This document shows, one piece after another, positions 15,692 to 45,300 of a DNA stretch of 64,000 bases. The translations under genes were made by a program, and so were the position numbers. How positions within the stretch are numbered: position 1 is the stretch's first letter; every line of letters starts with the position of its first letter. The notes under the pieces are model-generated. The model was not told the origin of the DNA. It did not search any database and saw only the letters and a list, made by a program, of their open reading frames with translations. The stretch is from an uncultured Flavobacteriaceae bacterium (GTDB taxonomy: Bacteria > Bacteroidota > Bacteroidia > Flavobacteriales > Flavobacteriaceae), in assembly GCA_947503005.1 (NCBI GenBank), contig CANNCA010000002.1, positions 496,001-560,000 of the forward strand. Reading direction: 5' to 3'.

Positions 15692-16813
15692 GTGAATTGC
15701 TATGATATTATTATTGTTGGTGGGGGTTTGGCCGGACTAACGGCTGCACTGCACCTTTCCCAGAAAAACTATTCGATTTTAGTAATCGAAAAGAAGAAAT
15801 ATCCCTATCACAAGGTTTGTGGCGAGTATGTGTCCAAAGAAGTCATCCCTTATTTGGAGCAACTTGGTGTTTCGTTTGGGGAGATACAGGTAAAGAAAAT
15901 TGACACCTTACTTCTTAGTTCTAGTAGCGGAAAATCGGTTCAAACCAAACTTCCTTTGGGTGGCATTGGGATCAGTCGTTTTACCTTAGATCAGCTGCTT
16001 TATCAAAATGCGATTGAAAAGTGTGTTGATTTTCAAACAGATACCGTATTGAGTATCGATTACAGAGAAAATATTTTTTTTATCACAACGGAACACGGTC
16101 GGCAATTTAGTGCCACCCTTGTTATAGGTGCCTACGGAAAACGTGATGCGCTTGATAAGCGTTTAGATAGAACATTTATAAAAAAAAAATCAGCTTGGCT
16201 AGGAGTGAAAGCACACTATGAATTTGATGATTTTCCTGATAATCTAGTTGCGTTACACAATTTTAATGGAGGATACGGAGGATTGTCCAAAACGGAGACC
16301 GGCGCAGTGAATTTCTGTTATTTAACTGCCTATAAAAGCTTTCAAAAAGAAAAGAACATTGAGGAGTTTAACAATAATGTTGTTGCGCAAAATCCTTTTT
16401 TAAAGGAATTTCTTAAAAATGCCCAACCAATTTTTGATGAACCATTGACGATTGCTCAAATATCTTTCGATCAGAAAACGGCAATTAAAAACCACGTTCT
16501 GATGTGCGGAGATACCGCCGGATTGATACACCCGCTTTGTGGCAACGGAATGGCGATGGCAATTCATGCGGCAAAGATTGCTAGCGAACTAATTTTCGAC
16601 TATATGGAAAGCAACGACCGCAAGCGTGCGAAATTGGAACAAGAGTACCAACGACAATGGAGCCAAGCCTTTACAAAACGCCTATGGATGGGGAGAAAGT
16701 TACAGGCAATTTTGTTGAACAAAACTATGTCTAAGTTATCCATGAACCTTGCAATTCAAACACCGTCTTTGTTACAACAACTCATAAAGAATACTCACGG
16801 CAAAACCTTATGA
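15692..16813 (+). CDS. FAD-dependent oxidoreductase of the type III PKS cluster (geranylgeranyl-reductase-like)
   Basis: A 373-residue flavoprotein starting at GTG 15692; an ATG two bases upstream is out of frame and followed by TGA. The dinucleotide fold IIIVGGGLAGLTAAL (Gly10-x-Gly12-x-x-Gly15) is followed by VIEKKKYPYHKVCGEYVS, characteristic of the geranylgeranyl-reductase/aromatic-hydroxylase group, and the FAD pyrophosphate motif CGDTAGLIHPLCGNGMAMA lies near residue 270. It could hydroxylate or oxidise the cyclised polyketide, or reduce a double bond. It is the first gene of the operon and overlaps the methyltransferase by 4 bp. Confidence 0.88.
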   Translation: MNCYDIIIVGGGLAGLTAALHLSQKNYSILVIEKKKYPYHKVCGEYVSKEVIPYLEQLGVSFGEIQVKKIDTLLLSSSSGKSVQTKLPLGGIGISRFTLDQLLYQNAIEKCVDFQTDTVLSIDYRENIFFITTEHGRQFSATLVIGAYGKRDALDKRLDRTFIKKKSAWLGVKAHYEFDDFPDNLVALHNFNGGYGGLSKTETGAVNFCYLTAYKSFQKEKNIEEFNNNVVAQNPFLKEFLKNAQPIFDEPLTIAQISFDQKTAIKNHVLMCGDTAGLIHPLCGNGMAMAIHAAKIASELIFDYMESNDRKRAKLEQEYQRQWSQAFTKRLWMGRKLQAILLNKTMSKLSMNLAIQTPSLLQQLIKNTHGKTL

Positions 16814-17544
16814 TGTTCAAAGACCTGTCAAAAAGAAGCACTGAACCTGAACTAATGGATGATTTCCAGGGCAGTATAGATTTGCTAAAGGCAGTTTTCG
16901 AAGACATTAATAAAGTAAATCGAATTTTGGGAGGTAATCAAATTACCGTAAATGCCGTAGCGCGATTGATTCGAGAAAATCCAAAAGAAAAATATGTTAT
17001 TGTTGATATGGGTTGCGGCGATGGTAGTATGCTGCGTGAGGTAGCGCAATATTGCCGAAAAAAAGGCATTAAAACGGAACTTATCGGAATCGATTTGAAC
17101 CGTGAGGCCTTAAGTATTGCAATTGAGAATTCAACCGAATATTCAGAAATCAGTTTTCAATATGCTGACATTCTAACATTCAGTACTGAGACCCTGAATT
17201 GTGATATTGTGATAAATACGTTGACCATGCATCATTTTACCGACACGCAACTGGTAATTTTTTTAAACAAGTTCATTGAGCTGGGCAGAATAGGGGTTGT
17301 CATCAACGACCTGCAAAGAAGCCGTATAGCATATTATCTATTTAAACTCTTTAGTGTTATTTTTATAAAAACAAAAGTTGCTAAAATTGACGGTTTGATA
17401 TCTATAAATAAGGGATTTGTCAAATCTGATCTGTTGTCATACGCGAAAGGCCTCCCATCGGTGTCGCATCAAATTAAATGGAAATGGGCCTTCAGATATG
17501 TATGGGTTATGAAGCCGATTCGAAAAAGAAAAGTATATGAGTGA
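16810..17544 (+). CDS. Class I SAM-dependent methyltransferase of the type III PKS cluster
   Basis: A 244-residue Rossmann-type methyltransferase. Motif I VDMGCGDGS is at about 65-73, the ribose-binding acidic motif is IGIDLN near 91, motif II is YADILTF, and a motif III-like TLTMHHFTD follows. The C-terminal half contains a hydrophobic stretch near residues 175-187 that may associate with membrane or lipid substrate. It overlaps the flavoprotein upstream (ATGA) and the polyketide synthase downstream (8 bp), so the three are translationally coupled. The likely job is O- or C-methylation of the polyketide product; the acceptor is inferred from context only. Confidence 0.88.
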   Translation: MMFKDLSKRSTEPELMDDFQGSIDLLKAVFEDINKVNRILGGNQITVNAVARLIRENPKEKYVIVDMGCGDGSMLREVAQYCRKKGIKTELIGIDLNREALSIAIENSTEYSEISFQYADILTFSTETLNCDIVINTLTMHHFTDTQLVIFLNKFIELGRIGVVINDLQRSRIAYYLFKLFSVIFIKTKVAKIDGLISINKGFVKSDLLSYAKGLPSVSHQIKWKWAFRYVWVMKPIRKRKVYE

Positions 17545-18592
17545 GACCCGAATTGTTACCGTTGCAAAAACGTTACCTGAATATTGTCGCAGTACAGAAG
17601 AAATTATTCCTTTTGTGAAAATATGGCTGGCGGATGAAGAAGAACGTTTCCAAAGAAAGGTCGTTAAGATTTTCGAAGGAGCTGCAGTAGAGAAGCGTTA
17701 CGGTATTATGAACATTGAAGAGGTGTTTAGCGCTACTTCTTTCGAGGATAAAAATGCTATTTATGTTCGAGAAGTAAAGAAACTTGGAAAGGCCGTTTTG
17801 CAAAAAGCACTTAATCAAAGCGCTTGGCAAGCAGATTCTTTGGACTATATTATAACGGTAAGCTGCACGGGTATCATGATTCCATCGTTAGATGCCTATT
17901 TGATTAACGATTTAGGGTTACGTGAAGATGTTGTGCGTCTTCCGGTAACAGAGATGGGTTGCGCGGCCGGTATTTCAGGACTCATTTATGCGCACAACTT
18001 TCTTAAATCAAACCCAGGAAAGCGCATTGCATTAGTTGCCGTGGAAAGTCCGACCGCCACTTTTCAATTGAATGACCATTCGATGGCGAATATGGTAAGC
18101 GCGGCTATCTTTGGTGATGGGGCGGCATGTGTATTACTGTCTTCCGAAGAAGATGCTATAGGACCTAAGATACTCGGTGAAGCCATGTACCACTTTAAAG
18201 ATGCAACCCACATGATGGGTTTTGATTTGACCAATCACGGATTGAAGATGATACTAGATCCATCGGTTCCGGAGACGATTGCGGAACATTTTCCAAAAAT
18301 CGTACATCCGTTTCTTGAAGTTTACGGAACATCCATCGATGGGGTCGATCATTTAATTTTTCATCCTGGAGGGCGAAAAATTGTTCAAACTGTTGAGGAG
18401 TTATTCGGTAAATTAGGAAAAAATATAGACGATACACGTGAGGTTCTACGAGCTTATGGTAATATGAGTAGTGCCACTGTATTGTACGTTTTAGAACGTT
18501 TTATGAACAAGGACATACCTAAAGGAGAGAAAGGATTACTTTTAAGTTTTGGCCCCGGATTTTCGGCACAGCGGGTGTTATTGGAGTGGTAG
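17537..18592 (+). CDS. Type III polyketide synthase (chalcone/stilbene synthase family)
   Basis: A 351-residue homodimer-type condensing enzyme. The catalytic triad is complete: Cys142 in TEMGCAAGISG, His276 in LIFHPGGRK and Asn309 in YGNMSSATVLY; the C-terminal loop SFGPGFSAQ also fits. Type III PKSs extend a starter acyl unit with malonyl-CoA and cyclise the chain to resorcinols, pyrones or phloroglucinols. The length is that of bacterial enzymes. It is flanked by tailoring genes upstream and acyl-chain-building genes downstream, suggesting a long or specialised acyl starter supplied by the local carrier protein. Chain length and cyclisation mode cannot be read from sequence alone. Confidence 0.95.
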   Translation: MSETRIVTVAKTLPEYCRSTEEIIPFVKIWLADEEERFQRKVVKIFEGAAVEKRYGIMNIEEVFSATSFEDKNAIYVREVKKLGKAVLQKALNQSAWQADSLDYIITVSCTGIMIPSLDAYLINDLGLREDVVRLPVTEMGCAAGISGLIYAHNFLKSNPGKRIALVAVESPTATFQLNDHSMANMVSAAIFGDGAACVLLSSEEDAIGPKILGEAMYHFKDATHMMGFDLTNHGLKMILDPSVPETIAEHFPKIVHPFLEVYGTSIDGVDHLIFHPGGRKIVQTVEELFGKLGKNIDDTREVLRAYGNMSSATVLYVLERFMNKDIPKGEKGLLLSFGPGFSAQRVLLEW

Positions 18593-18610
18593 TATTACAT
18601 TGAAGAAGAT

Positions 18611-19402
18611 ATGAATGATATATCAAATACAATAAATTGGGCCTTGATTCTTGGAGGCAGTAGCGGTTTAGGTCTCGCAACCGCAAAAAAGTTAGCAAGA
18701 CATGGATTTCATATTATAATTGTTCATAGAGATGCACGGGTTGATTTACAGCGGATTGAAAGTGATTTTGAAGAAATTACTTCAAGTGGAGTTCAGTTAA
18801 AAAGTTTTAATATCGATGTAGCCAATCCCGAAAAACGGATTTCCGTTTTGGAAGAAATAGCAACCACTATCGCCTCTGACAAAATAAAAGTACTGGTACA
18901 CAGTATTGCCAAGGGAAGTCTTAAACCCATGCAGTCAGATTCAGGAAACACTTTGGAACACCAAGACTTTACAATTACCCTGAATGCAATGGCACTAAGC
19001 CTTTATGATTGGGTAAAAGCAATTCACAATGACGGCTTATTTGCAGATGATACAAGAATTATTTCTTTTACCAGCGAGGGCAATGCAAAAGCTTGGCCCG
19101 GTTATGCTGCGGTTTCAGCGGCCAAAGTCACTTTAGAGGCTTTAACACGGAACATTGCACTTGAATTTGCATCATCAGGAATCAAAGCGAACTGTATTCA
19201 GGCGGGAGCTACAGAAACACCTGCGTTTTCAATGATTCCAAATAGTAATAAATTAAAAGAAAGTGCATTAAAACGGAATCCCAATAGGCGCTTGACCACT
19301 CCCGAAGATGTCGCTAACGTAGTTTATCTGTTAACAACCAATGAAGCCAAATGGATAACTGGTACGGTAATTAAGGTTGATGGAGGAGAAAGTTTGATGT
19401 AG
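18611..19402 (+). CDS. Enoyl-ACP reductase-like SDR (FabI/FabL type) of the cluster
   Basis: A 263-residue short-chain dehydrogenase/reductase with the cofactor motif ILGGSSGLGLA near 13-23. The active-site spacing is Tyr165-x6-Lys172 (GYAAVSAAK), the pattern of enoyl-ACP reductases FabI and FabL; classical ketoreductases have Tyr-x3-Lys. The following LEALTRNIALEFASSGIKANCIQAGATET also resembles FabL. It probably reduces the trans-2-enoyl intermediate on the cluster's ACP. It lies 18 bp after the PKS gene. A role as ketoreductase cannot be fully excluded without a structure or assay. Confidence 0.82.
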   Translation: MNDISNTINWALILGGSSGLGLATAKKLARHGFHIIIVHRDARVDLQRIESDFEEITSSGVQLKSFNIDVANPEKRISVLEEIATTIASDKIKVLVHSIAKGSLKPMQSDSGNTLEHQDFTITLNAMALSLYDWVKAIHNDGLFADDTRIISFTSEGNAKAWPGYAAVSAAKVTLEALTRNIALEFASSGIKANCIQAGATETPAFSMIPNSNKLKESALKRNPNRRLTTPEDVANVVYLLTTNEAKWITGTVIKVDGGESLM

Positions 19403-19408
19403 AAACCC

Positions 19409-19434
19409 CTGTCAGTTCGAGCCGGTCTCGACCT
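19409..19434. repeat. Degenerate palindromic intergenic repeat inside the PKS operon
   Basis: The stretch CTGTCAGTTCGAGCCGGTCTCGACCT just after the reductase stop contains an imperfect inverted repeat (TCGAG / CTCGA). It resembles the small palindromic element (GTCAGTTCGAG...CTCGA) that I recall as frequent between flavobacterial genes. It occupies part of the 86-bp gap before the dehydratase gene, the widest gap in this otherwise compact operon. Confidence 0.4.
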
Positions 19435-19488
19435 AAGTATTTCTGAAGAAACTTCTTGGTTGCGATTGTAGTTACAAACGAAAAAAGA

Positions 19489-19932
19489 ATGAAATTCAAA
19501 AGTATCATACAAAAACTTCCCTTTAGAAAACCCTTCCTTTTTGTGGATGAGCTTTTGGAAATTGATGATAAAGGCGCAAAGGGGTGCTATATTTTCCCTA
19601 AAATTTCCGATTTCTATAAAGGTCATTTTAAGGATAACCCAGTTACTCCTGGGGTTATTTTGACAGAATGTTGCGCCCAAATCGGACTGGTTTGTTTAGG
19701 AATCCATTTGTTGGGCGGCGCAACCGATACAAATTTGAAAATAGGTCTGACCAGTTCTGAAATGGAGTTTTTACTTCCCGTATTTCCAGGAGAGAAAGTT
19801 ATAGTATCCTCGAAAAAAGTATATTTCAGATTCCAGAAACTAAAATGCGAGGTAAAAATGCATAATAGAGAAGGAAAATTGGTCTGTAAAGGTATCATTG
19901 CAGGAATGTTCAAATCTGATAAGAATGGGTAG
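19489..19932 (+). CDS. FabZ-like 3-hydroxyacyl-ACP dehydratase of the cluster
   Basis: The ORF track starts at a TTG (19456); ATG 19489 is chosen because the A-rich lead AAACGAAAAAAGA precedes it and the product (147 residues) has FabZ length. It is a single hotdog domain: PFRKPFLFVDELLE, then YKGHFKDNPVTPGV with catalytic His46, then ILTECCAQIG with catalytic Glu60. It should dehydrate 3-hydroxyacyl chains on the ACP. Its stop overlaps the ketosynthase start by 8 bp, so they are coupled. Housekeeping fabZ would be elsewhere in the genome. Confidence 0.88.
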   Translation: MKFKSIIQKLPFRKPFLFVDELLEIDDKGAKGCYIFPKISDFYKGHFKDNPVTPGVILTECCAQIGLVCLGIHLLGGATDTNLKIGLTSSEMEFLLPVFPGEKVIVSSKKVYFRFQKLKCEVKMHNREGKLVCKGIIAGMFKSDKNG

Positions 19933-21199
19933 ACGCGTAGTTATTACAGGATTAGGCGTATGTGCCCCGAATGGAATTGGATTGACCGATTTCACAAGAG
20001 CTTTGCAAAAAGGAAAGAGTGGAGTCCGTTTTCAACCCCGATTGGCCGAGTTGAAATTCGGCTGTCAAATAGCCGCAGAACCTTTGGTCCCGGACAACCT
20101 TGTAGAAAAGTATTTTACCCCGCTTCAACTTCGGGGATTGAATGCAAGTGGCCTTGTTTATGGCGTAATTGCTGGCACGGACGCATGGAACGATGCTGGA
20201 TTGAAACCAAATACCGGAGAAAGCCCAGATTGGGATAGTGGCATCATTTTTGGCACGGGGATTCTAGGGGTGGATAAATTCCGTGAATCGATTCATTTGG
20301 TAGATGGTCAAAATGTGAGGCGTTTGGGAAGTACTACGGTTCTTCAAACCATGGCAAGTGGAATTAGTGCTTATTTAGGAGGGATTCTAGGTTGCGGCAA
20401 TCAGGTGACTACGAATTCTTCGGCTTGTACAACGGGGACAGAAGGTATTTTGATGGCCTTTGACCGAATAACAGCTGGTAAAGCGGAACGCATGCTTGCA
20501 GGAAGTTGTAGTGATAGTGGTCCTTACGTTTGGGGCGGTTTTGACGCGATGCGTATTCTTCCGAGACAATATAATGATAATCCGACAAAAGCAAGTAGGC
20601 CTATGAGCGCCTCTGCTGCCGGTTTCGTTCCCGGAAGCGGGGCAGGGGCTTTGGTTCTAGAGTCATTGGATAGTGCGTTGGCTCGTGGTGCCAAAATCTA
20701 TGCTGAAGTATTGGGCGGGGCGGTCAATAGTGGGGGACAAAGAGGAGATGGTACCATGACGGCACCAAATAGTGAAGCAGTGCAACATTGTATTACGGAG
20801 GCCATTCTTCATTCGGGAATCGAAAAAAGTGATATCGATGTCATCAACGGGCATTTGACCGCTACCTCCAAAGATGCTTTGGAAATCGAAAATTGGAGTG
20901 AAGCTTTGAATCGCTCAGGAACAGATTTTCCATTTATTAATTCTTTTAAAGGGCTTTTTGGTCATTGCTTGGCTGCAGCGGGAAGTATTGAATGTGTCGG
21001 AGCGTTACTACAATTTCAGGAAAAAGAAGTTTTTGGCAATGTGAATTGTGAAGATGTACATTCTGAAATCGAAAAACATATTTCTGCTTCAAGAATACCC
21101 CGTAAAACGGAGAAATTTATTCCTAAAATCATTGCCAAGGCAAGTTTCGGCTTTGGAGACGTGAACGCTTGTGTTATTTTTGCTGCTTTTAACGACTGA
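19925..21199 (+). CDS. Beta-ketoacyl-ACP synthase (FabF-like) of the cluster
   Basis: Start ATG 19925 (MGRRVVITGLGV) is preferred over the ORF-track start at 19898. The 424-residue protein has the thiolase fold with the Cys-His-His set of decarboxylating ketosynthases: Cys168 in TTNSSACTTGTEG, His310 in INGHLTATSKD and His347 in FKGLFGHCLAAAG, with Lys342 also present. It condenses malonyl-ACP with an acyl primer. The INGHLTAT motif differs from the VNAHGTST of housekeeping FabF, in keeping with a specialised enzyme. It overlaps the dehydratase gene by 8 bp and precedes the ACP gene by 72 bp. Confidence 0.9.
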   Translation: MGRRVVITGLGVCAPNGIGLTDFTRALQKGKSGVRFQPRLAELKFGCQIAAEPLVPDNLVEKYFTPLQLRGLNASGLVYGVIAGTDAWNDAGLKPNTGESPDWDSGIIFGTGILGVDKFRESIHLVDGQNVRRLGSTTVLQTMASGISAYLGGILGCGNQVTTNSSACTTGTEGILMAFDRITAGKAERMLAGSCSDSGPYVWGGFDAMRILPRQYNDNPTKASRPMSASAAGFVPGSGAGALVLESLDSALARGAKIYAEVLGGAVNSGGQRGDGTMTAPNSEAVQHCITEAILHSGIEKSDIDVINGHLTATSKDALEIENWSEALNRSGTDFPFINSFKGLFGHCLAAAGSIECVGALLQFQEKEVFGNVNCEDVHSEIEKHISASRIPRKTEKFIPKIIAKASFGFGDVNACVIFAAFND

Positions 21200-28154: not shown

Positions 28155-29368
28155 TGCGCTTACTATTTTATTTAGGGATTCTTTTCTTTTTCACGCCTGT
28201 ATCATGTGCCAAAAAGTCGAAGCAAAAGGTCGGTGAAGCACAATCAATAACTTCTCCTGCAGGCACTAATGCTTCATTACCTTATTTATTCACTAATACT
28301 GAAACCACACTACTATCATGGATAGAAGAAGTAAATGATAGTCTAGTCAGTTTACGGTATTCCGAATTGAAAGAAGGCGAGTGGCTGAATCCAACTACTA
28401 TTGTCAGCGGAAGCGATTGGTTCGTAAATTGGGCCGACTTTCCGTCCATAGTGGAAAATAACGGTCATCTCTTTTCCCATATACTCAAGAAGTCTTCTGA
28501 GGGCACTTATTCTTATGATGTGAAAATGAATCTTAAACGTGCAGGTACTTCAGCATGGTATACTGAAATGCCATTGCATTCAGATCAGACTCCCACCGAG
28601 CACGGTTTTGTAACTGCAATTCCTTATCAAGCTGACTCGTTCTTTGTTACTTGGTTGGATGGTAGAAATACGGAAGAAATAGACGGTCAAGAACGTGGTG
28701 CCATGACAATACGAGCGGCGGAAGTTTCGGTTAAAGGCGAAATTGTAAATGAGGTGCTACTAGATTCCCGTACTTGTGATTGTTGTCAAACAACAGCTGC
28801 AGTAACTGAAAACGGTCCGGTGGTAATTTACCGCGATAGGACTGAGAATGAAATCAGGGATATCAGTATTGTTCGCCTGGTCAATAGCAAATGGACCAAT
28901 CCGGTATCGATACATGAAGATAATTGGAAAATTAATGGATGTCCTGTGAACGGCCCTAAAGCAGCCGCGATCGAAAACGTGTTGGTAGTGGCATGGTTTA
29001 CCGGAGCCAATGAGCAATCAGCAGTAGAAATTGCATTCTCGAATGACAATGGGACGAATTTTAATGCACCGATAACCATTGGGTCAGACAATGTTATTGG
29101 CCGGGTAGATGTAGTTTTATTAGATAAAAATACCGCATTGGTAAGCTATGTTGAATCGAAGGATAAAAGTGCTCAATTAAAAGTAGCCAAAATCAATCAG
29201 TCAGGAGAAGTATCAAATGCAAAAGTTATAACGGAAATAAGTGCTTCACGCAAATCAGGTTTTCCGCAGATGGAATTGGTTGGTGATAAAATTCTTTTTG
29301 CTTGGACCGATGTCCTGAGTGGAAAGTCAAATGTGCGAACTTCCCTCATATCCATAAATGACCTATAA
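28154..29368 (+). CDS. BNR/sialidase-like propeller lipoprotein with a CxCC motif
   Basis: A 404-residue lipoprotein (lipobox Cys18 in FFFTPVSC). The mature part is beta-rich with sialidase/BNR-like repeats; an Asp-box-like SNDNGTNFNAP occurs near residue 295. It has a striking Cys cluster, DSRTCDCCQTT (Cys208, Cys210, Cys211), and another Cys in INGCPVNGPK (Cys263). The catalytic Arg triad of true sialidases is not evident, so 'exo-alpha-sialidase' would be an overcall. Coupling to a TlpA-type reductase suggests the cysteines are redox-active or bind a metal. A terminator follows directly. Confidence 0.8.
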   Translation: MRLLFYLGILFFFTPVSCAKKSKQKVGEAQSITSPAGTNASLPYLFTNTETTLLSWIEEVNDSLVSLRYSELKEGEWLNPTTIVSGSDWFVNWADFPSIVENNGHLFSHILKKSSEGTYSYDVKMNLKRAGTSAWYTEMPLHSDQTPTEHGFVTAIPYQADSFFVTWLDGRNTEEIDGQERGAMTIRAAEVSVKGEIVNEVLLDSRTCDCCQTTAAVTENGPVVIYRDRTENEIRDISIVRLVNSKWTNPVSIHEDNWKINGCPVNGPKAAAIENVLVVAWFTGANEQSAVEIAFSNDNGTNFNAPITIGSDNVIGRVDVVLLDKNTALVSYVESKDKSAQLKVAKINQSGEVSNAKVITEISASRKSGFPQMELVGDKILFAWTDVLSGKSNVRTSLISINDL

Positions 29369-29394
29369 AAAACCTCCGAAGAAATAAGGTTTTT
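29368..29394 (+). terminator. Rho-independent terminator after the TlpA/BNR pair
   Basis: The 8-bp stem AAAAACCT / AGGTTTTT begins at the last base of the stop codon and ends in a run of T. The A-rich 5' arm and T-rich 3' arm would also permit termination from the opposite strand. Confidence 0.75.
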
Positions 29395-29542
29395 AAGTTA
29401 TATTTTTATTTTTCGCTTGCTATATTTATGAACTGAAAACAATTTCTCAGAAGAATCCCCCCCGTTTTACATTAAAACAAGTCAAATACCCATTAATAGT
29501 ACTTTCTGGGTTCTTGATATTTAAGTATTTAAAAAATAGATT

Positions 29543-31489
29543 ATGGCGATAGGTTGGGTTAGAGCGTATTCAGATGAATTTATCCATTTCAAAGATATCG
29601 TTGGAGAGAGTAAGAAAGATAAATCATTTTATCGACAGGGATTCCGCACTAAGATTCATGAACTTCAAGATGAGAATTCTCCCGTACTCCAAGAGTTGAA
29701 ATGGGAAGACGAAGTGGAACTACCAGATGGCATCGGTTCTGGGTCGTTTACAAAAGTTATTTTTCAAGGGAATGAAGGTTTTGTAAAAAGAAGCCATTTA
29801 GTGGAGGTTGGCTTTGTTCACAATTTGGAAGAAGGAGAAGACAATCGTTTCATAGCGCAGTTGGAAACCAATGTTCGTACCATCAAACTGTTATGGGGTG
29901 ATCTAGTCCAAATTCGTAAGCGAGAAGGAGATAAATGCAAGGTAAAGGCAAGAAACTGGTTTGGCACAATGGACACAAATCGAATTATTGACAAGGCACT
30001 GTTGGATATTTTTTTTATTGATGTTGGCCAGGGGGATGGTATCCTCGTTAGATTTCCGGAAGGAAAGCACTTGCTTATTGATGGAGGACTACAGCGTAAG
30101 AATCAAATGACGGGCAAGAATGCAGCTGATTTTCTAGACTGGAAGTTCCATGCAGACTATGGCCATTTCAAAATCACGCTTGACGGTATGATGGCTTCGC
30201 ACTGTGATTCCGATCATTATGGGGGACTGTGGGACTTGGTCAAAGAGCCAATTGCAGAGGATAAAGAATTGGATTGTGTTGAATTGAAAATAAAGGAGTT
30301 CTTTCACGCGGGATTGTCACGATGGAAAAAAAGAGAAAACCTTGCAAATCCTCACAAAGATGGTCTTGGACCAACATCAGATGGATGGTTTGTACGCTTA
30401 CTAGGGGATCGAACAGACGTAGAAGAATCTGTGGAGGAGAACAGTGAGAATACCCTTCAGGGAGATTGGGGCTCATTTATAAAAGCTGTTCTTGATCAAG
30501 ATGCGGATACCACGATTGAAAGAGTTGGTGTTAAAGAAGAAGAAATAAAAAACGGAACTGACTTTCCTCAAATATGGAAAAATGACTCCGAATGTGCGAT
30601 TAAAGTACTCGCCCCAATAACCAGACAAGTCAATGGTATAGATGCATTGAAAGACTTAGGTGTAAAATCTATAAATACAAACGGTCACAGTATCTGTTTA
30701 CGGTTAGATTATGGATCTGCACGTATTCTACTCACTGGGGATCTTAACAGCGCCAGTATGAATTGGATTTCAGAAGTCTTTGAAGATCGAATCAATGAAT
30801 TTTCTTGTGATGCCGCTAAAGCATGTCATCATGGAAGTCATGATATCTCATATAAATTCTTAAAGGAAATAAACGCTGCGGCTACTGTTATTTGTTCTGG
30901 TGATTCAGAAGGATATGCACATCCTCGTCCCGAAATTGTTGCAGCGAGTGCGGTTACCGGCTTTGTTGCGGTAGATGAAGTGAAAGACAAGCTGATTACC
31001 CCCTTGATATATATGACGGAGATTGAGCGCTCTGTTTCATTGGGCAGGCTCACCCATATACGACTAAAAAACTTTCCAGACATTGCTAATACGGTAAAAG
31101 AAGAGGTTGTTTTCGCTACAAGCCCTGATTTAATTAGCAATTCGGCTTTGTATTCCTATCGCGAAAGAAAAATTATGGATGACATGGATGACACGAATGA
31201 AAAAGAAGACTTTAAGGATGAAATTGAAGAGCGTGAAAAAGATTTATTGGAATCAAGTTTTGAGAAGCAGGTAAACGCTGAAACCGAAGCTGATTTTCAT
31301 TATCAAACGGTTCATAAGTTTACTACACCATATGGTAATCAAAGATTAAAAGGTACACGCATCATGACAAAGAATCACTACGGATTGGTAACCGTACGTA
31401 CGGATGGCGAAACGATGATGTGTGCAACCATGACAGAAACTGGTGATGGGTGGTCTACAAAAAGTTTTCCTGCACGATTCGTCAACTAA
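29543..31489 (+). CDS. Large metallo-beta-lactamase-fold protein (ComEC-hydrolase-like) with extra N- and C-terminal domains
   Basis: A 648-residue cytosolic protein without signal peptide or membrane segments. Residues 1-140 form a beta-rich region (HFKDIVGESKKDKSFYRQGF; EGFVKRSHLVEV) that could contain SH3-like folds. The MBL domain (about 153-480) opens with FFIDVGQGDGILVRFPEGKHLLIDGG, has the metal motif SHCDSDHYGG (His220, Asp222, Asp224, His225), then LLTGDLN and KACHHGSHDIS, all as in the C-terminal domain of ComEC. An acidic linker (about 545-580) leads to a small basic C-terminal domain. The ComEC channel is missing, so it is not a DNA uptake protein. It stands alone after a terminator. 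Confidence 0.82.
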   Translation: MAIGWVRAYSDEFIHFKDIVGESKKDKSFYRQGFRTKIHELQDENSPVLQELKWEDEVELPDGIGSGSFTKVIFQGNEGFVKRSHLVEVGFVHNLEEGEDNRFIAQLETNVRTIKLLWGDLVQIRKREGDKCKVKARNWFGTMDTNRIIDKALLDIFFIDVGQGDGILVRFPEGKHLLIDGGLQRKNQMTGKNAADFLDWKFHADYGHFKITLDGMMASHCDSDHYGGLWDLVKEPIAEDKELDCVELKIKEFFHAGLSRWKKRENLANPHKDGLGPTSDGWFVRLLGDRTDVEESVEENSENTLQGDWGSFIKAVLDQDADTTIERVGVKEEEIKNGTDFPQIWKNDSECAIKVLAPITRQVNGIDALKDLGVKSINTNGHSICLRLDYGSARILLTGDLNSASMNWISEVFEDRINEFSCDAAKACHHGSHDISYKFLKEINAAATVICSGDSEGYAHPRPEIVAASAVTGFVAVDEVKDKLITPLIYMTEIERSVSLGRLTHIRLKNFPDIANTVKEEVVFATSPDLISNSALYSYRERKIMDDMDDTNEKEDFKDEIEEREKDLLESSFEKQVNAETEADFHYQTVHKFTTPYGNQRLKGTRIMTKNHYGLVTVRTDGETMMCATMTETGDGWSTKSFPARFVN

Positions 31490-31630
31490 TCGAAATTTTC
31501 AAAATGAAGTGCCTGCTAAGTAATTTGAAGCGAATCAAGTATACCCGTTATTCGTTTTCAATAAAAATATCCATCTTAAGATTGATGAGAAGTTCGTATT
31601 TTTAGTTTCATTTAAAATTTTGCCGTTAAA

Positions 31631-32958: not shown

Positions 32959-35900
32959 ATGAGCTATAAAAAACCGACCAGGATGAGAACCTATATTACT
33001 GCCTTTTTTTGCCTGTTTCTATTTCATTTGGAGGCACAAATTGATACCTCCCAATTCCAAAATTTAGAATACCGCATGATTGGTCCCTTTCGAGGTGGCC
33101 GTACAGTTGGTGCAGTAGGGATTCCTACCCAACCAAACGTTTTCTTTATCGGACACAATAATGGTGGCGTTTGGAAAACAGATGATTATGGTCGTACCTG
33201 GAACCCGATTTTCGATGATGCGCCCACAGGTTCGGTAGGGGATTTAGCGGTATCGCCTTCAAATCCCGATATTATATATGTAGGTACTGGCGAAGGATTA
33301 CACCGTCCTGATTTGGCCGTTGGCGATGGTATCTTTAAATCGGTTGATGGAGGGAAAACATGGAACCACATCGGTTTAGGTGACATTCAACAAGTCAGTC
33401 GTGTAATAGTACATCCGACAAATCCAGACATTGTTTTTGTGGCAGGATTGGGTCATCCCTACGGTGCCAATGAAATGAGGGGTGTTTTTCGTTCTTTGGA
33501 CGGAGGTGGTACCTGGGAGAAAACACTTTATATCAATCAGAATACCGGAGCGGTTCAGGTGGAATTCGATCCTAGTCATCCACAAGTGCTGTTTGCAGAT
33601 ATGTGGGAACATTTAGAAGGACCTTGGGAGAATGCAAAATTCACAGGACCTAATAGCGGTTTATACAAATCAATCGATGGTGGCACCACCTGGATTAAAA
33701 TCACCAAAGGCTTACCAACTACGGAGCAGGGATTGGGAAGAATAGGCGTTGCTATTGCTCCAAGTAATTCCAACCGCATGTACGCGACCGTAGACGCTAA
33801 AGAAAATGGAGGAATCTATATCAGTAATGATAATGGTGAAAATTGGTCATTGATCAATACGGACTATCGCTTATGGGGCAGGGGAAGTGATTTTGCGGAA
33901 ATTAAAGTGCATCCAAAAAATGAGGATATACTATTTGTGGGCAATATTGCTTCTTACAAATCAGAAGACGGAGGTAAAAGCTGGATGTCTCTAAAAGGCG
34001 CTCCAGGAGGTGACGACTACCATCGAATTTGGATAAATCCATTACACCCTGATATTATGCTCTTCGCTGCGGACCAAGGTGCGGTGGTTACGGTAAACGC
34101 AGGCAAAACATGGAGTTCTTGGTACAACCAACCTACATCGCAATTGTATCATGTGAGTACTGATAATCAATTTCCGTATTGGGTCTATGGCGGTCAACAG
34201 GAAAGTGGTGCGATTGCCGTTGCAAGTAGAAGTAACGGTGGGCAAATTTCCTTTCGGGAATTCATGGGGGTGGGAGCCGATGAGTATGCCTATGTTGCTC
34301 CAGACCCCAAAGACCCGAATATAGTTTATGGCGGTCGGGTAATCAAATTCAATAAGAGCACGGGGCAATCACAAGTGGTCGCTCCGGAAGTATTGCGCTC
34401 TGGAAAAGTACGGTTTCTAAGAACGATGCCCTTACTCTTTCATCCTGCAGATGACAACATGCTCCTCTTCGGAACTAACATTGTTTTTAAAACGATGGAT
34501 GGTGGCCAAACTTGGGAAGAAATTAGTCCTGATTTGACAAGAAAACAACCGGAAATTCCGGAAAGTGTCGGTGACTTTAAGACAGATGAAATGAAGTCCA
34601 TGGCGCAAAGGGCCATAGTCTATGCGCTAGGTCCTTCACCTTTGAATAAAGATATCATTTGGGCAGGTACCGATGACGGATTGGTACATGTCACCAAGGA
34701 TAGTGGAACAAACTGGGCAGATGTCACGCCCCCGGAAATAGAGTCTTGGGATAAGGTTTCCCAAATTGATGCAGGTCATTTCGATGAAGGCACCGCCTAC
34801 ATTGCTGTGAATGCCATTCGCAAGGACAATATGCTTCCTTTGATTTATAAAACTCATGATTTTGGACAATCGTGGGAGTTGATTTCCAACGGAATGAATC
34901 CCATGGGACCTGTAAATACGGTACGGGAAGACCATACTGCAAAAGGATTATTGTTCGCGGGAACAGAACGAGAGGTCTATTTTTCAGTGGATGATGGTGC
35001 CAACTGGCAGTCGTTACGGTTGAATATGCCGGCATCCTCAATTCGAGATTTGGTCATTCATGAAAATGATTTGGTCATTGGCACACATGGGCGGTCCATC
35101 TGGATTTTGGATGATTTCAGCCCGTTAAGAGAATTGGCAGAACTCCCGCAAGAAAGTCCATATTTATTTCAACCCAGTGTAGCGACAAGGGTTCGGTTCA
35201 ATATGTTTACTGATACACCTTTGCCGCCGGAAGAACCCACAGGCGAGAATCCACCTGATGGAGCGCTATTGGATTATTACCTTCCAACAGCCGCCAAAGA
35301 AGTTTCCATCGAGATTTTAGATGATCAAAAAGTGGTGAATTCGTTCAGTAGTAAAACTGTTTTACAATTGCCCGACAGCACGAAACTACCGCATCCTACT
35401 TATTGGATTCGTCCCTTAGAAAAACCATCCACTGAGAAAGGGCATCAACGTTTTGTCTGGAATTTACGCTATGCGGACCCTCCAGGCGCGGACCGAAGTT
35501 ATGCGATAGCTGCAGTTTTGGAAAACACACCGGACGGCCCCGTGGGCCCGTTCGTTGCACCAGGTAAATATACTGTGAAGCTAACCGTTGATGGCACAAT
35601 TTTTCAAAAGGAAATTGTTGTCCGTTTGGATCCACGTTCAAAACTTTCACCACAAGGTTTAGAATTACAAACTTCGCTTTCTATGATCGTGTATGAAGCC
35701 TATAAACAATTGCATTCCCTTCGCGAAGTTGCAAAAGTAACTTCAAATAACAGAAAACTCAGAGGCAAGAAGCTTTCGGCAATTAAAAATTTTATTGGAG
35801 TAGGAGAACCTGAAAATGGAGATCCCTTATACGGTAGCATAAGAGAAGTGCAAATCGAAAATGAAACCGTAGTCGGACTTCAAGGGAAATTACTCTATCT

Positions 35901-36018
35901 TTTGATAGTACTTCAAAATGCAGATGCCAAACCTACTTCTCCGACCGAAAAAGCGGTTCAAAAAATGATAAAAAGAACTGAAGAAATGAAAACCAAATGG
36001 CAGTCCATTTCAAAATAG
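32959..36018 (+). CDS. VPS10/BNR propeller protein, paralogue 1
   Basis: A 1,019-residue exported protein. The signal peptide is best seen from Met9 (MRTYITAFFCLFLFHLEAQ), so 32983 is an alternative start. About residues 30-720 are BNR/Asp-box beta-propeller repeats: KTDDYGRTW, KSVDGGKTW, RSLDGGGTW, KSIDGGTTW, KSEDGGKSW and KTMDGGQTW. A beta-rich module follows, then a helical tail beginning at the shared LDPRSKLS segment. Often annotated 'glycosyl hydrolase', but no glycosidase active site is visible; a sortilin-like binding role is as likely. Two paralogues follow in the same locus (36047 and 42365). Confidence 0.9.
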   Translation: MSYKKPTRMRTYITAFFCLFLFHLEAQIDTSQFQNLEYRMIGPFRGGRTVGAVGIPTQPNVFFIGHNNGGVWKTDDYGRTWNPIFDDAPTGSVGDLAVSPSNPDIIYVGTGEGLHRPDLAVGDGIFKSVDGGKTWNHIGLGDIQQVSRVIVHPTNPDIVFVAGLGHPYGANEMRGVFRSLDGGGTWEKTLYINQNTGAVQVEFDPSHPQVLFADMWEHLEGPWENAKFTGPNSGLYKSIDGGTTWIKITKGLPTTEQGLGRIGVAIAPSNSNRMYATVDAKENGGIYISNDNGENWSLINTDYRLWGRGSDFAEIKVHPKNEDILFVGNIASYKSEDGGKSWMSLKGAPGGDDYHRIWINPLHPDIMLFAADQGAVVTVNAGKTWSSWYNQPTSQLYHVSTDNQFPYWVYGGQQESGAIAVASRSNGGQISFREFMGVGADEYAYVAPDPKDPNIVYGGRVIKFNKSTGQSQVVAPEVLRSGKVRFLRTMPLLFHPADDNMLLFGTNIVFKTMDGGQTWEEISPDLTRKQPEIPESVGDFKTDEMKSMAQRAIVYALGPSPLNKDIIWAGTDDGLVHVTKDSGTNWADVTPPEIESWDKVSQIDAGHFDEGTAYIAVNAIRKDNMLPLIYKTHDFGQSWELISNGMNPMGPVNTVREDHTAKGLLFAGTEREVYFSVDDGANWQSLRLNMPASSIRDLVIHENDLVIGTHGRSIWILDDFSPLRELAELPQESPYLFQPSVATRVRFNMFTDTPLPPEEPTGENPPDGALLDYYLPTAAKEVSIEILDDQKVVNSFSSKTVLQLPDSTKLPHPTYWIRPLEKPSTEKGHQRFVWNLRYADPPGADRSYAIAAVLENTPDGPVGPFVAPGKYTVKLTVDGTIFQKEIVVRLDPRSKLSPQGLELQTSLSMIVYEAYKQLHSLREVAKVTSNNRKLRGKKLSAIKNFIGVGEPENGDPLYGSIREVQIENETVVGLQGKLLYLLIVLQNADAKPTSPTEKAVQKMIKRTEEMKTKWQSISK

Positions 36019-36046: not shown

Positions 36047-39000
36047 ATGAAAATATTACGTTTTACCATGATAGTTCTGCTTTGTCTGAGCTCAGGACTT
36101 GTTGCACAACGAAAGAAAAAAAGCACGGCTCCCGTGATTTCCGAAAGACTTTACGAATCAATGAAATATCGAAATATCGGTCCTTTTCGTGGAGGTCGCT
36201 CCACAACGGTGACCGGTATCCCTAATGATATTTTCACCTATTATATGGGTGCTACGGGAGGTGGTGTATGGAAAACTGAGGATGGTGGAAATACTTGGAA
36301 TAATATTTCCGATGGCTATTTTAACACTACAGGAATTGGAGACATTACGCCTGCACCATCCAACCCCAATATCATTTATGTGGGTACCGGGGAATCTCCA
36401 GTACGTGGTGTAAAGACTTCCCATGGCGATGGACTTTACAAGTCAACCGATGCCGGTAAGACTTGGAAACACATGGGGCTTGAAAAAACGAGACATATTA
36501 GTGATGTCTACGTGCATCCGAAAAATCCTGATAAAGTATTTGTAGCTGCTCAAGGTAATCCCTGGGGACCGAACGAAGAACGTGGTGTGTATCTGTCTGA
36601 AGATGGGGGAGAAACCTTTGAGAAAATTCTATATGTAAACCAGAATTCAGGTATTGTCGATATGACAGTGGATCCCAATAACCCAGATTTTATGATGGTG
36701 GCTTCTTGGGAGTTTTGGCGCAAACCATGGGTCGTACATAATGGTGGGCCTGGCTGCCGTATTTATAAAACCACTGATGGTGGTAAAAATTGGAAGGAAA
36801 TCACCAAAGGATTGCCGGAACTGAAAGGAAAAATGGGAGTCGATATTTCGCCCGCAAATCCCAATATCGTGTATATCGCCATTGATGCTGTAGGTGACAA
36901 AGCAGGTGTCTACCGCTCCGAAGACGCCGGAGAAAGTTTCAAGCAAATGACAAATGACGCTACTACGTATGCACGTTCTTGGTACTATATGCACATCATT
37001 GCAGACCCCATTGATGAAGATGAAGTTTGGGTAATGAACAGTTTTGCCATGAAATCGATTGACGGCGGAAAAACCTTTAAAGGAATGAAAGGTAGCCATG
37101 TGGATCATCACGACCTATGGATTAATCCGAACAATAATGATATTATGGTCAATGCCAACGATGGTGGTGGTTCGGTCACCTTTAATGGTGGAAAAACCTG
37201 GTCAACTATGTACAATCAGCCTACAGGTCAGTTTTACCGGTTGATTACCGATAACGGTCATCCATATCGCATATATTCAGGACAACAGGACAATAGCACC
37301 ATAGCAATCGATAGCCGCGTAGTGGATAACGGTATCGGAGAAATGCATTGGGATGTTATGCGGGCCGGAGAATCGTCAACGGTTGCCGTAGACCCTGATA
37401 ATCCACGTTTTGTGTATTCGACCTACTTCGCAAGTAATTTTGTGGAATGGGACCGTGATATCGATAATACGCGAACGGTAATGCCTTATCCCACACGGGT
37501 AACAGGCGAACAACCAAAAAACCTAAAGTACCGCGCCAATTGGAACGGACCTGTAATTGTTTCTCCCCATAATCCAAACGTGATTTATTATGGTTCTCAG
37601 TACGTAATGAAATCCTCCGATAGGGGCGTCACTTGGGAAGTGTTGAGCGAAGATTTGACCCGTAATGATAAGGAACATCAAGGCAAAGGTGGAGAACCGA
37701 TTAGCAATGAGCAGATTACTGCGGAGAGCTACAACAATTTGTTCAATATCGAAGAATCATCCTTAAGAGAAGGAGTCATTTGGGTCGGCTCTGATGATGG
37801 ATTGGTGCACGTCACTCAAGATGGTGGGAAAACTTGGACCAACGTGACTCCCAACGGACTTAAAGAAAGCATCATCAACGTGGTAGAACCTTCCCCTCAT
37901 GATGCTGCTACTGCTTATATCGCGGTTGCAGGCTATAAAATGAATGATTTTACACCTTATATATTTAAGACAAATAACTATGGGGCCACCTGGACGAAAA
38001 TCGTTAACGGAATTCCTGGAAACACCTTTGCAAGAAGTGTCCGTGAAGACCCTGATAGAAAAGGATTGTTGTATGCTGGGACCGAAACCGGAGTTTTTGT
38101 TTCATTCGATGACGGTAACCAATGGTTGCCATTGCAAAATAATTTACCCGAAGTTCCGATAACTGATTTGAGAGTAAAACGAAAAGATTTGGTAGTTGCC
38201 ACTCAGGGAAGGGCTTTATGGATCTTAGATGATTTGACGCCATTGCATCAAATTTCCGATGAAATTGCCAATGCAGATTATTACCTTTTTAAACCTAATG
38301 ATACCAACGCAGAGCTTTCGGTGGCCTACAGTATTGACGGGGGATTTGGAGAAAACCCTCCGCAGGGCGCTCAAATTAATTATGTATTGAACAAAGAGAT
38401 TTCCGATGACATTCCGATGTCATTGGAAATTAGGAATGATAGCGGCGAGGTAGTTCATTCAGAGTTTTCTCATCTGACTAAAGTAGGATGCGATTCCTTG
38501 ATTAAGCCTCAATTAAGGCGTAAGAAGGGGTCACATCGCTATTCTTGGAACATGAAAATTGGTCGTTTTGATTGTCTTACCGAATTATATACTACCAATC
38601 GTGATTTAACCGCCTATAATGCAGCTCCCGGAAAGTATACGGTTCGTTTGAACATTGGAGATTTCACTCAAGATCAAGATTTTGAAATTACCATCGATCC
38701 ACGAATCGCTAATAGTATCGAAAATGTAACGGCCGCGTATCAAGAACGTGATAAAATTTCCAAATCCATTTATGAAGGTGCAACTCAGATGGCAAAGGGC
38801 GTACGCGACCTTCAAAAAATTAAGCAGCAATTAGATTTTGTGCTTTCGGCCACTGATGATGAAAATCTCAAAAAGCAGGGTATAAATCTAAATCAAACTT
38901 TGGACGATTGGATTTCCAAGATTCTCCAAAAGGAAATGCGAACGTTTCAAAGTAATTACATGTTCGAAGCGCGACTGCTCATCAAGTTCAAGGACTTCTT

Positions 39001-39178
39001 GAACCGCATCGGAAAAGGAAATTTGCCTGTTACACAAGGTACACGCGATGTAACAGAAGATTATTTACAACAGTGGCAAGCTCTGAAATCGAGTTTGAAT
39101 ACCATTAAGGGTAGTGAGGTTGCTAAATACAACAAGCTATTAGAAGCAGCCGGTTTACCAGAGCTGTACTGGCCATAA
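36047..39178 (+). CDS. VPS10/BNR propeller protein, paralogue 2
   Basis: A 1,043-residue exported protein with signal MKILRFTMIVLLCLSSGLVAQ. It has the same architecture as the previous gene: start motif MKYRNIGPFRGGRSTTV, Asp-boxes KTEDGGNTW, KSTDAGKTW, LSEDGGETF, KTTDGGKNW, RSEDAGESF and VTQDGGKTW, then the Ig-like segment ending in FEITIDPRIANS and a coiled helical tail. It lies 28 bp after paralogue 1, so probably in one transcript. No catalytic motif of a known hydrolase is visible. The next gene (class V aminotransferase) begins 39 bp later. Confidence 0.9.
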   Translation: MKILRFTMIVLLCLSSGLVAQRKKKSTAPVISERLYESMKYRNIGPFRGGRSTTVTGIPNDIFTYYMGATGGGVWKTEDGGNTWNNISDGYFNTTGIGDITPAPSNPNIIYVGTGESPVRGVKTSHGDGLYKSTDAGKTWKHMGLEKTRHISDVYVHPKNPDKVFVAAQGNPWGPNEERGVYLSEDGGETFEKILYVNQNSGIVDMTVDPNNPDFMMVASWEFWRKPWVVHNGGPGCRIYKTTDGGKNWKEITKGLPELKGKMGVDISPANPNIVYIAIDAVGDKAGVYRSEDAGESFKQMTNDATTYARSWYYMHIIADPIDEDEVWVMNSFAMKSIDGGKTFKGMKGSHVDHHDLWINPNNNDIMVNANDGGGSVTFNGGKTWSTMYNQPTGQFYRLITDNGHPYRIYSGQQDNSTIAIDSRVVDNGIGEMHWDVMRAGESSTVAVDPDNPRFVYSTYFASNFVEWDRDIDNTRTVMPYPTRVTGEQPKNLKYRANWNGPVIVSPHNPNVIYYGSQYVMKSSDRGVTWEVLSEDLTRNDKEHQGKGGEPISNEQITAESYNNLFNIEESSLREGVIWVGSDDGLVHVTQDGGKTWTNVTPNGLKESIINVVEPSPHDAATAYIAVAGYKMNDFTPYIFKTNNYGATWTKIVNGIPGNTFARSVREDPDRKGLLYAGTETGVFVSFDDGNQWLPLQNNLPEVPITDLRVKRKDLVVATQGRALWILDDLTPLHQISDEIANADYYLFKPNDTNAELSVAYSIDGGFGENPPQGAQINYVLNKEISDDIPMSLEIRNDSGEVVHSEFSHLTKVGCDSLIKPQLRRKKGSHRYSWNMKIGRFDCLTELYTTNRDLTAYNAAPGKYTVRLNIGDFTQDQDFEITIDPRIANSIENVTAAYQERDKISKSIYEGATQMAKGVRDLQKIKQQLDFVLSATDDENLKKQGINLNQTLDDWISKILQKEMRTFQSNYMFEARLLIKFKDFLNRIGKGNLPVTQGTRDVTEDYLQQWQALKSSLNTIKGSEVAKYNKLLEAAGLPELYWP

Positions 39179-42244: not shown

Positions 42245-42364
42245 TTGACGAAATAGTTAAATGTAAGCCTAACCGAATAGTGCATGGTGAAAAAGACGAA
42301 TACCAACTATATGTTTACTATTTGGACACAAACCTTTGAACTAATCAATTTGAGACTTTATAAT

Positions 42365-45300
42365 ATGAATTTTAAATTTTTACACAGCCTTTCCATCTTA
42401 CTCTCAATAATTGTCGTGACAATTTCAACCGCTCAAGATTTCGAAGCGTTGCAATATCGTACCGTTGGTCCTGAAAGAGGAGGAAGGGTGACCACCGTTA
42501 CGGGTACACCCCAATTACCGGGAACTTTTTATTTAGGTGCCTCGGGTGGCGGCGTATGGAAATCGGAAGATTACGGCACCAGTTGGAACAATGTTTCCGA
42601 TGGCTTTTTCGCTACTCCGTCTATCGGGGCTATCGAGGTAGCGACCAACGACCCGAATATAGTTTATGTAGGTACTGGTTCGGATGGGCTACGTAGCAAC
42701 GTAATCGCTGGCAAAGGAATTTACAAATCCATTGATGCGGGTGAAACTTGGGAACACATCGGTTTAAAAAATGTGGGGCAAATTGGAGCCGTTGAAATCG
42801 ACCCTACAAACCACAATGTGGTTTGGGTGGCTGCAATCGGCAATGCCTTCAGGCCTAATGAAGAGCGCGGAATATTCAAAACTACGGATGGGGGTAAAAA
42901 TTGGCAAAAAGTGCTGTTCATTTCCAATGAAGTCGGGTTTTCCGATTTGGAACTACTTCCGGGAAATCCGAATGTGATTTATGCCGCGGCGTGGAAAGCG
43001 CAACGAAAACCTTGGACGATTATCTCTGGGGGGAAGTCTGATGAAGGCGGCATCTACAAATCCATTAATGGTGGAAAAGATTGGGTAAAACTCCAAGACG
43101 GACTCCCGAAAAGCACTATCGGTAAAATAGATTTGGCGGTTTCTGCGAGTGATTCACGTATTTTATATGCCGTTATCGAAGCCCCAGAGAAGGAGGGGGG
43201 CTTGTATAAATCTGTTAACCAGGGCAAAACGTTTGAACAGGTTTCAGATAACAAAGGGTTGGTCAACCGACCCTTTTATTATACCAATGTGGAGGTAGAC
43301 CCAACAAATTCAGACATTGTGTATTCCAATGCGAATCCGATATTGAAATCCGTCGACGGCGGAAAAACTTGGAAACGCATGAGCGTTCCCCATGGCGACA
43401 ATCATGATATATGGCTGAATCCGAACAACCCGGAAATTTTGATACAAGCGAATGATGGTGGTGCCAATGTCAGTCTTAACGGTGGCAAAACATGGTCTAC
43501 TCAATTCAACCAACCTACCGCAGAACTTTATCAGGTGGAAGTTGACGATCAATATCCATATTGGCTATACGCTGGTCAGCAAGACAACTATTCTACCATT
43601 GCAGTTCCGAGTTTTCCGCCGTATGCCATTCAAAATACCGGTTCTGGCTGGATTATAAATACTGGTGGTTGTGAAACAGGGCCGGCAGTTCCCAAGCCTG
43701 GCGACCACAATACGGTGTATGCAAATTGCAAAGGTCGATTTGGGGTTTTCAATAAGTTGACAGGAGTGGAGAAAAGTTATTATGTGGGCGCCTCTAACAT
43801 CTACGGGCACGATCCGAAGGATTTAAAATATCGTTTTCAAAGGGTCGCACCGATTCATGTTTCGCCTCATAATCCTGATGTGGTCTATCACGGGTCACAA
43901 TATTTACATAAAACTAATAATGACGGACAATTATGGGAAACCATCTCACCTGACTTGACCGCTTTTGAGGCCGACAAACAAGTGATTTCAGGGAGTCCGA
44001 TTACCCGGGATATTACAGGGGAAGAATACTATAGCACCTTATATTCTATTCGAGAATCGAAACTCAAGGAAGGGCTGATTTGGACGGGATCAAACGACGG
44101 TGTTATTTACGTAACCCAGGATGGTGGAAAAACTTGGAACGATGTAACACCTAAAAAACTTCCCAAAGGGGGACGGGTAGAATCCGTAGAACCCTCACAG
44201 CATGATATCGGCACGGCATATATTGCCATAGATCGCCATTTACTGGGGGATGAAAAGCCGTATTTGTTGAAGACAAGCGATTATGGTAAAACCTGGGAGT
44301 TGTTGAGTTCCGAAACCAGGGGAATTCCCTCTGACCATAGCACGCGCGTACTTCGTGAAGATCCGGTTCGTAAAGGCTTGCTCTATTCAGGCACAGAATT
44401 CGGAATGTTCATTTCCTTCGATGATGGAAAAAATTGGGAACCTTTTCAACAGAATCTTCCGGTAACGCCGATAACCGATTTAAAAATTTTTCGTGGAGAT
44501 TTAATCCTTAGTACCATGGGAAGGGGATTTTGGATTTTAGACAATATCACATCACTCCGAGATACTGCCATGAAGACCGTAGAAAATAAACCCTATTTAT
44601 TCGCCCCGGATACAACCATTCGCTATCGGTATCCATTGGTAAGGGCAACCAATACATTTCCAGAATTTCCAAGAACGAGTGTTTATCTGGATTATTTTCT
44701 CCCAGAAAACTCCAAAAATGGATTGAAATTGGAAATTTTGAACGCTAAGAATGAATCTCTAGTAACCATTCTTAGTGACAGTACGCAACTGAAATCCACT
44801 GTTGAAGAAGTGGAGGATATGAACCTTAGTCAAACCTTTCGTTATGTCAATGAAAAATTGACAAATAATAAAGGTTTGAATCGTTTTGCCTGGGATTTAC
44901 GGCAAAAAGGCCCTTGGGACAAAGACACCAAAAAACGATTCAAAAACGGCACAATGGTGCCTCCAGGAAGGTACACCGCGAGATTAAGTGTGGGAGAGCA
45001 ACTAGTGGAACAATCCTTTGAAATAGTGATTGACCCAAGAGTGAAAAAAGAAGGAATCTCGGATAGCGATATTGAAAAACAACTAGCGATGCAATTAAAA
45101 GTCAGTGATTTGCTTTCTGAGGCACGAAAGTTACAGGCCGATTTGGAGAAAGAATCCAAATTATTGAAGCGAAAAGAAGATAAAAAGGAGCGTTTAGAAA
45201 AAGTGAACCGAATAATAGCACAATTAAAGAACGCTGAAGGCGCGTATCCGCAACAGATGCTCATAGCACAAATTGGCTACTTGTATTATATGATCAATGG

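Follow-up and report, generated by a model that had tools for sequence, protein, structure and literature searches.

A stand-alone ComEC-type metallo-β-lactamase protein with SH3b-like domains, predicted to be a phosphodiesterase, from a Flavobacteriaceae genome

Recent work has shown that ComEC-type metallo-β-lactamase (MBL) nucleases act as pro-enzymes with a partner protease in several unrelated immune systems. A branch of these proteins that is fused to SH3b-like domains, has a complete active site, and lacks any partner raises the question of how a potentially lethal DNase would be kept in check, and what its target would be. One such protein is encoded in the window, by which we mean the whole 64,000-nucleotide stretch of DNA analyzed here, from an uncultured Flavobacteriaceae bacterium. 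The gene and its parts are as follows.

29543 to 31489, plus strand: whole gene, encoding a stand-alone ComEC-type MBL protein of 648 amino acids, long form (open reading frame, homologues, AlphaFold)
29543 to 29866, plus strand: N-terminal "GWIRAY" segment and first SH3b-like barrel, residues 1 to 108 (phmmer, model strands, Foldseek, Pfam)
29879 to 29998, plus strand: second SH3b-like barrel, residues 113 to 152, with the pattern LLWGDxV...VxARGxxG (alignments, model)
29999 to 31039, plus strand: ComEC-type MBL core, residues 153 to 499, with D180, H220-x-D222-x-D224-H225, D400, H429-H-G-S432, and H460-P
Residues 235 to 373: family-specific ordered insertion in the MBL core, with a conserved H255
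31040 to 31378, plus strand: helical insertion of the long form, residues 500 to 612, earlier called an acidic linker (alignments, model)
31379 to 31486, plus strand: probable terminal β-hairpin, YGLVTVRTDG, residues 613 to 648, conserved family-wide

The open reading frame described in an earlier, sequence-only reading was recovered exactly, with an ATG start and 648 open codons. The coding gene is genuine: 13 long-form homologues, mostly from other phyla, align with it over the full length at 41 to 57% identity, and these alignments begin mostly at the same start region, M..GWIRAY. The gene is present as a single copy in its own 4.58-Mb genome, and gaps of 174 nucleotides upstream and 141 nucleotides downstream uphold the view that it is monogenic. 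The terminator said to precede it is an AT-rich hairpin at 29368 to 29394 that is no more stable than shuffled sequence (z score of -0.57) and was not detected in a scan for the terminator consensus. Lactamase_B is the sole Pfam match of the protein, Pfam and NCBIfam give its family no functional name, and a search of a library of papers found no account of a stand-alone SH3-MBL family.

The nearest solved structure, by sequence and by fold alike, is the MBL domain of Moorella glycerini ComEC (PDB 9ic4), which was matched with an E value of 1.1e-14 in phmmer, 4e-20 with a profile, and 9e-14 in Foldseek, where the TM score by target length was 0.75. Mutations in the Moorella nuclease covered five metal residues (H598, D600, D602, H603, and D700) and two residues with a putative role in DNA binding (H725 and S728); most of the metal mutants had almost no activity left, while the drop was about 5-fold in D600A and about 3-fold in S728A (PMC12455585). 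All seven residues are present in the window protein, where an HMMER alignment with scripted numbering places them at H220, D222, D224, H225, D400, H429, and S432, respectively. Across 75 relatives, the first six never vary, and S432 shows at least 90% conservation. The protein shows the MBL fold and the H-x-D-x-D-H, GD (Asp), HHGS, and HP motifs of the wider class, so that the ComEC-type core with metal residues that had been proposed is upheld by profile, alignment, and fold. It is highly likely that the protein combines SH3b-like domains with a phosphodiesterase of the ComEC MBL type. Cleavage of nucleic acid or of another phosphodiester, as the sequence-only reading had suggested, is the natural prediction for a soluble ComEC-like MBL protein that has no partner gene, keeps all of its catalytic residues, and carries extra domains.

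The explanation that we favor, with modest confidence, is that of a two-metal MBL phosphodiesterase that is self-contained in the cytosol, most probably cuts DNA in the way the ComEC MBL domain does, and serves as a stand-alone mobile accessory. A metal-activated water, with H220, D222, D224, H225, and D400 as ligands and D224 as the general base, would attack a phosphodiester held near H429 and S432. DNA is predicted, by a slight preference, to be the main substrate.

The likeness to ComEC does not amount to identity. The protein scores 54.4 bits against the NCBIfam model ComEC_Rec2 (TIGR00361), for which the curated cut-off is 190, and it likewise falls below the curated cut-offs for Avs1a (NF041809; 49.8 bits versus 420) and 6A-MBL (NF058524; 30.3 bits versus 220). 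Identity as ComEC was rejected on this score and because the protein has no hydrophobic segment, the OB fold and channel are absent from its model, and the genome carries a separate ComEC gene. The highest 19-residue hydropathy is 1.16, in agreement with the earlier statement that there is no channel, and no signal peptide or transmembrane segment was found in the window protein. The genome's own ComEC (G000:C3, L168:1159-3174) has a C-terminal MBL-like region without recognizable HxDxDH and HHGS motifs, and competence of the strain, if it exists, would call for a separate nuclease. However, it is scarcely plausible that the window protein is this missing nuclease of natural transformation, complementing ComEC: of 21 relatives examined, 20 had a ComEC match, whereas the MBL family occurs in only 4 of 15 congeners, a rarity that argues against nuclease supply in trans, and the window protein is soluble and has no link to competence genes. 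The ComEC of a congener (G201; L170) has the same look as that of the window genome, with the motifs missing.

The AlphaFold model of the window protein was made from a 75-sequence alignment with the window protein as lead and the long-form clade included, and it reached a mean pLDDT of 93.8 and a pTM of 0.92. An earlier model from 16 mostly short forms had left residues 43 to 111 and 499 to 611 largely unresolved, and it was the long-form clade that resolved them. The layout is a short N-terminal segment, SH3-like barrels at about residues 35 to 108 and 113 to 152, the MBL domain, a helical insertion (533 to 579), and a terminal sheet and hairpin (584 to 643). The N-terminal domain had been described as beta-rich, which is correct, and it is better described as two SH3b-like barrels, one family-wide and one restricted to the long form. 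The first barrel and the GWIRAY segment are limited to the long-form clade, and phmmer with residues 1 to 112 matches L098 to L109 and L114. The second, with model strands at 113 to 117, 121 to 128, 131 to 136, and 139 to 144, is shared with short-form relatives in the alignments. The SH3b β-barrel fold is indicated by Foldseek matches to tandem-SH3b endolysins and NlpC/P60 proteins (4krt, 6biq) at E values of about 1e-4 and, in the viral library, to SH3b lysins; the output gives no residue ranges, and these matches were placed on the N-terminal barrels from their fold. At the sequence level there is a weak Pfam match, to SH3_16, in one homologue. In ComEC, DNA binding by the MBL domain alone is undetectable, and the OB fold recruits DNA (PMC12455585). 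The two barrels of the window protein, which stand in place of the OB fold and channel, may bring in substrate or a partner, or may inhibit the enzyme; they take the N-terminal position, and we infer that they could do the job of the OB fold.

The region previously called an acidic linker is mildly acidic, with a net charge of -6 over the 113 residues from 500 to 612, and it is modeled as an ordered helical insertion with helices at 533 to 579 of high confidence. Short forms lack this insertion or have a much reduced version of it, and it keeps its position throughout the long-form clade. It might shape substrate access or oligomerization. The final 36 residues (613 to 648), earlier taken for an added C-terminal module, are probably the closing hairpin of the MBL fold, which the insertion interrupts, since they form the protein end in every family member, some short forms reach them almost directly after STELARS, and the C terminus of Escherichia coli YcaI has a similar G-x-x-x-V...G hairpin. 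The PDB sequence alignments end before this hairpin.

The net charge is -31 for the whole protein, -22 for the MBL core, and +6 for the second SH3b-like barrel. Such strong acidity is unusual for a nucleic-acid enzyme and counts against a DNase, though the second barrel is basic and the ComEC MBL domain likewise shows no detectable DNA binding of its own. Esters of many other kinds are also handled by MBL-fold enzymes, and the Foldseek list, after 9ic4, continues with RNase J, tRNase Z, CPSF73, and cAMP-bound MBL proteins. The acidity would suit a phosphodiesterase or phosphoesterase that acts on nucleotides, cyclic nucleotides, or some other small ester rather than on nucleic acid and whose SH3b-like domains bind protein or glycan. 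The breadth of the MBL superfamily favors the same idea, as do the Foldseek matches to cAMP-bound MBL proteins and to the phosphodiesterase tw9814. SH3b domains, moreover, are characteristic of cell-wall enzymes, and a phosphorylcholine esterase is the nearest structural match of the ComEC MBL domain (PMC12455585). We nevertheless consider a small-ester enzyme improbable, as the ComEC nuclease is by far the best match, including at the putative DNA-binding positions H725 and S728, and no signal peptide or transmembrane segment would direct the protein to the cell wall.

Relatives of the protein are numerous and scattered. When 84,980 species genomes were scanned with degenerate patterns from an alignment that had a short form as lead, 256 relatives emerged, 80 of which were fetched; a genome scan with the window protein alone, a poor choice of peptides, gave none. 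The relatives, at least 256, come from Bacteroidota, Pseudomonadota, Acidobacteriota, Planctomycetota, Gemmatimonadota, Nitrospirota, Myxococcota, Verrucomicrobiota, Actinomycetota, and one Lokiarchaeota bin, and bins, including this one, may contain contaminant contigs. Most are 480 to 520 amino acids long and have one SH3b-like barrel. The long form, of 625 to 710 amino acids, comprises 13 homologues and the window protein, with the extra N-terminal domain and the insertion in common, and its 14 rows, from five phyla, make up one branch with an SH-aLRT value of 99 in a quick tree that carries SH-aLRT support only. The nearest named row among the homologues is Arenibacter (L102). With its own genome counted, the family occurs in 13 of 201 sampled genomes of the taxonomic family, 4 of 15 of the genus, and 3 of 396 of the phylum. 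No relative was found in phage records, and viral contigs gave no long-form relative and one remote match (23%) for the short form. The family is thus widespread yet patchily distributed, and these frequencies, the five-phylum clade, and the variable genomic slots indicate that it spreads horizontally as an accessory module.

The slot that holds the gene in the window, 29369 to 31630, lies between sialidase-like and sorbosone-dehydrogenase genes and is variable within the genus. In two congeners (G204 and G211), the flanks, MFS-TlpA-sialidase-like on one side and sorbosone dehydrogenase-VPS10-like on the other, are conserved, and the MBL gene is replaced by a sulfatase (G204) or by a 383-amino-acid protein with a weak endonuclease/exonuclease/phosphatase match (G211); the same slot in congeners lies at L149:2762-4744 and L150:3551-4702. 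Elsewhere, next to an XdhC-like gene, a second slot is occupied in G201 and G213 by MBL-family members with only 27% identity to each other, whereas most flanking genes are 89 to 98% identical. These two members (L035:8492-10039 and L036:8641-10017) occupy different positions in one variable region, inside which one gene is 73% identical between the two genomes. Five other genomes with the second slot, including the window genome, have other genes or none there. Accessory or conflict genes would be expected to show such repeated arrival of divergent members at a variable site, and the pattern alone is no proof of defense. The flanks of the MBL gene in the window hold no defense or mobile genes, and the neighbors are metabolic or envelope genes, as might be expected for an ordinary housekeeping hydrolase that a few lineages happen to have retained. 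Such an origin is very unlikely, as a vertically inherited gene would not be expected to be so patchily distributed, to form cross-phylum clades, or to sit in variable slots.

Other parts of the window were also inspected by eye. Three paralogous large VPS10/sortilin-like β-propeller proteins are encoded nearly in tandem (32959 to 36018, 36047 to 39178, and 42284 to 45391), with aminotransferase-V-like and γ-glutamyltransferase-like genes between the second and the third. A compact cluster at 15692 to 21199 resembles a type III polyketide synthase locus, with genes for an FAD monooxygenase, a methyltransferase, a chalcone-synthase-like protein, an SDR reductase, a FabZ-like dehydratase, and a ketosynthase.

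That the gene has no partner, as first stated for the window, was confirmed in a survey of immediate neighbors at 92 homologous loci, where none recurs. All-against-all clustering of these neighbors yielded no non-homologous family beyond the synteny of related hosts. At 42 of the 92 loci, the homologue has no same-strand neighbor within 100 nucleotides, and at the remaining loci the adjacent genes are mutually unrelated (EutBC, MFS, EPSP synthase, GMP synthase, and others). Small membrane proteins, seen beside L038/L039, L050, and L062/L065, were considered as partners and rejected, as they account for 7.3% of the genes next to the homologues and 5.7% of those at a distance. Neither a characterized homologue with another function nor consistent housekeeping neighbors emerged. 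The defense-like setting that had been proposed was not borne out, as PADLOC matches numbered 42 families (114 genes) among adjacent genes versus 49 families (105 genes) among distant genes, with no excess in this coarse test, which counts families and not members. On a plasmid of Rhizobium leguminosarum (L018:9911-12248), a relative adjoins an S1/P1 nuclease gene, and two Ku genes are near.

The accessory phosphodiesterase that we favor would need no linked partner. A role in immunity, or in some other conflict with foreign DNA, is suggested only tentatively, and an antiphage function is possible. It is rather doubtful that it is a single-gene immune nuclease, in which the SH3b-like domains and helical insertion would detect an invader and set the nuclease free without a separate protease and sensor; if it were, the divergence in the second slot between near-identical flanks would represent turnover under conflict.

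HamM, Avs1a, and CanC are nucleases of related type that stay inactive, and do not cut DNA, until a trypsin-like or caspase-like partner protease cleaves the disordered loops that cover the active site (PMC12799240). The window protein might be a gated pro-nuclease of this kind, with its activating protease encoded elsewhere in the genome. By profile, it has the same kind of MBL core as LmuA, RTasMBL, and Avs1a, with PADLOC E values of 1.7e-16, 2.1e-15, and 2.1e-11, respectively, and it also matches PDC-M48B, all in the MBL core only; residues 235 to 373, between HxDxDH and the GD motif, and residues 500 to 612 could serve as gates. However, members of the gated group adjoin their protease gene (PMC12799240), as do the Avs1a-like comparators L157 and L159, which are 401 to 426 amino acids long and directly beside a trypsin-STAND gene (trypsin-STAND as read by eye), while no recurring protease was found at the 92 homologous loci or among the window neighbors. 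The gating loops, two insertions that block the active site and have conserved cleavage residues, are described as disordered, and the insertions of the window protein are modeled at a pLDDT of about 80 to 98, with no segment below 50. Since the window family lacks a linked protease and its model has no disordered gate, membership in the gated group was rejected as far as tested, and a protease encoded elsewhere is quite unlikely.

Among known systems, the closest comparison for the enzyme that we favor is the ComEC/Rec2 MBL domain (9ic4), which has the same fold, the H-x-D-x-D-H motif, and the D700, HHGS (H725, S728), and GHP positions. Compared with ComEC, the window protein is cytosolic, has N-terminal SH3b-like barrels instead of the OB fold and channel, and adds a family insertion of about 80 residues after HxDxDH and a long helical insertion before the last hairpin. 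The SH3b domains of endolysins and NlpC/P60 peptidases occur in secreted or phage cell-wall hydrolases, whereas those of the window protein precede a cytosolic MBL enzyme. The likeness to 6A-MBL, an anti-phage MBL-fold protein, is weak and confined to the MBL-core profile, far under the cut-off, and the window gene shows no partner genes. Avs1a (AVAST), HamM (Hachiman), LmuA (Lamassu), RTasMBL (DRT), and CanC (Canu) share the soluble ComEC-type MBL core and its motifs with moderate scores, but they are shorter and have disordered gates and a trypsin- or caspase-type protease gene alongside, whereas the window family has SH3b-like domains, ordered insertions, and no linked protease. In the window protein, ordered parts might conceivably block the active site. 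Our best guess is that the catalytic act is similar to that of the gated pro-nucleases.
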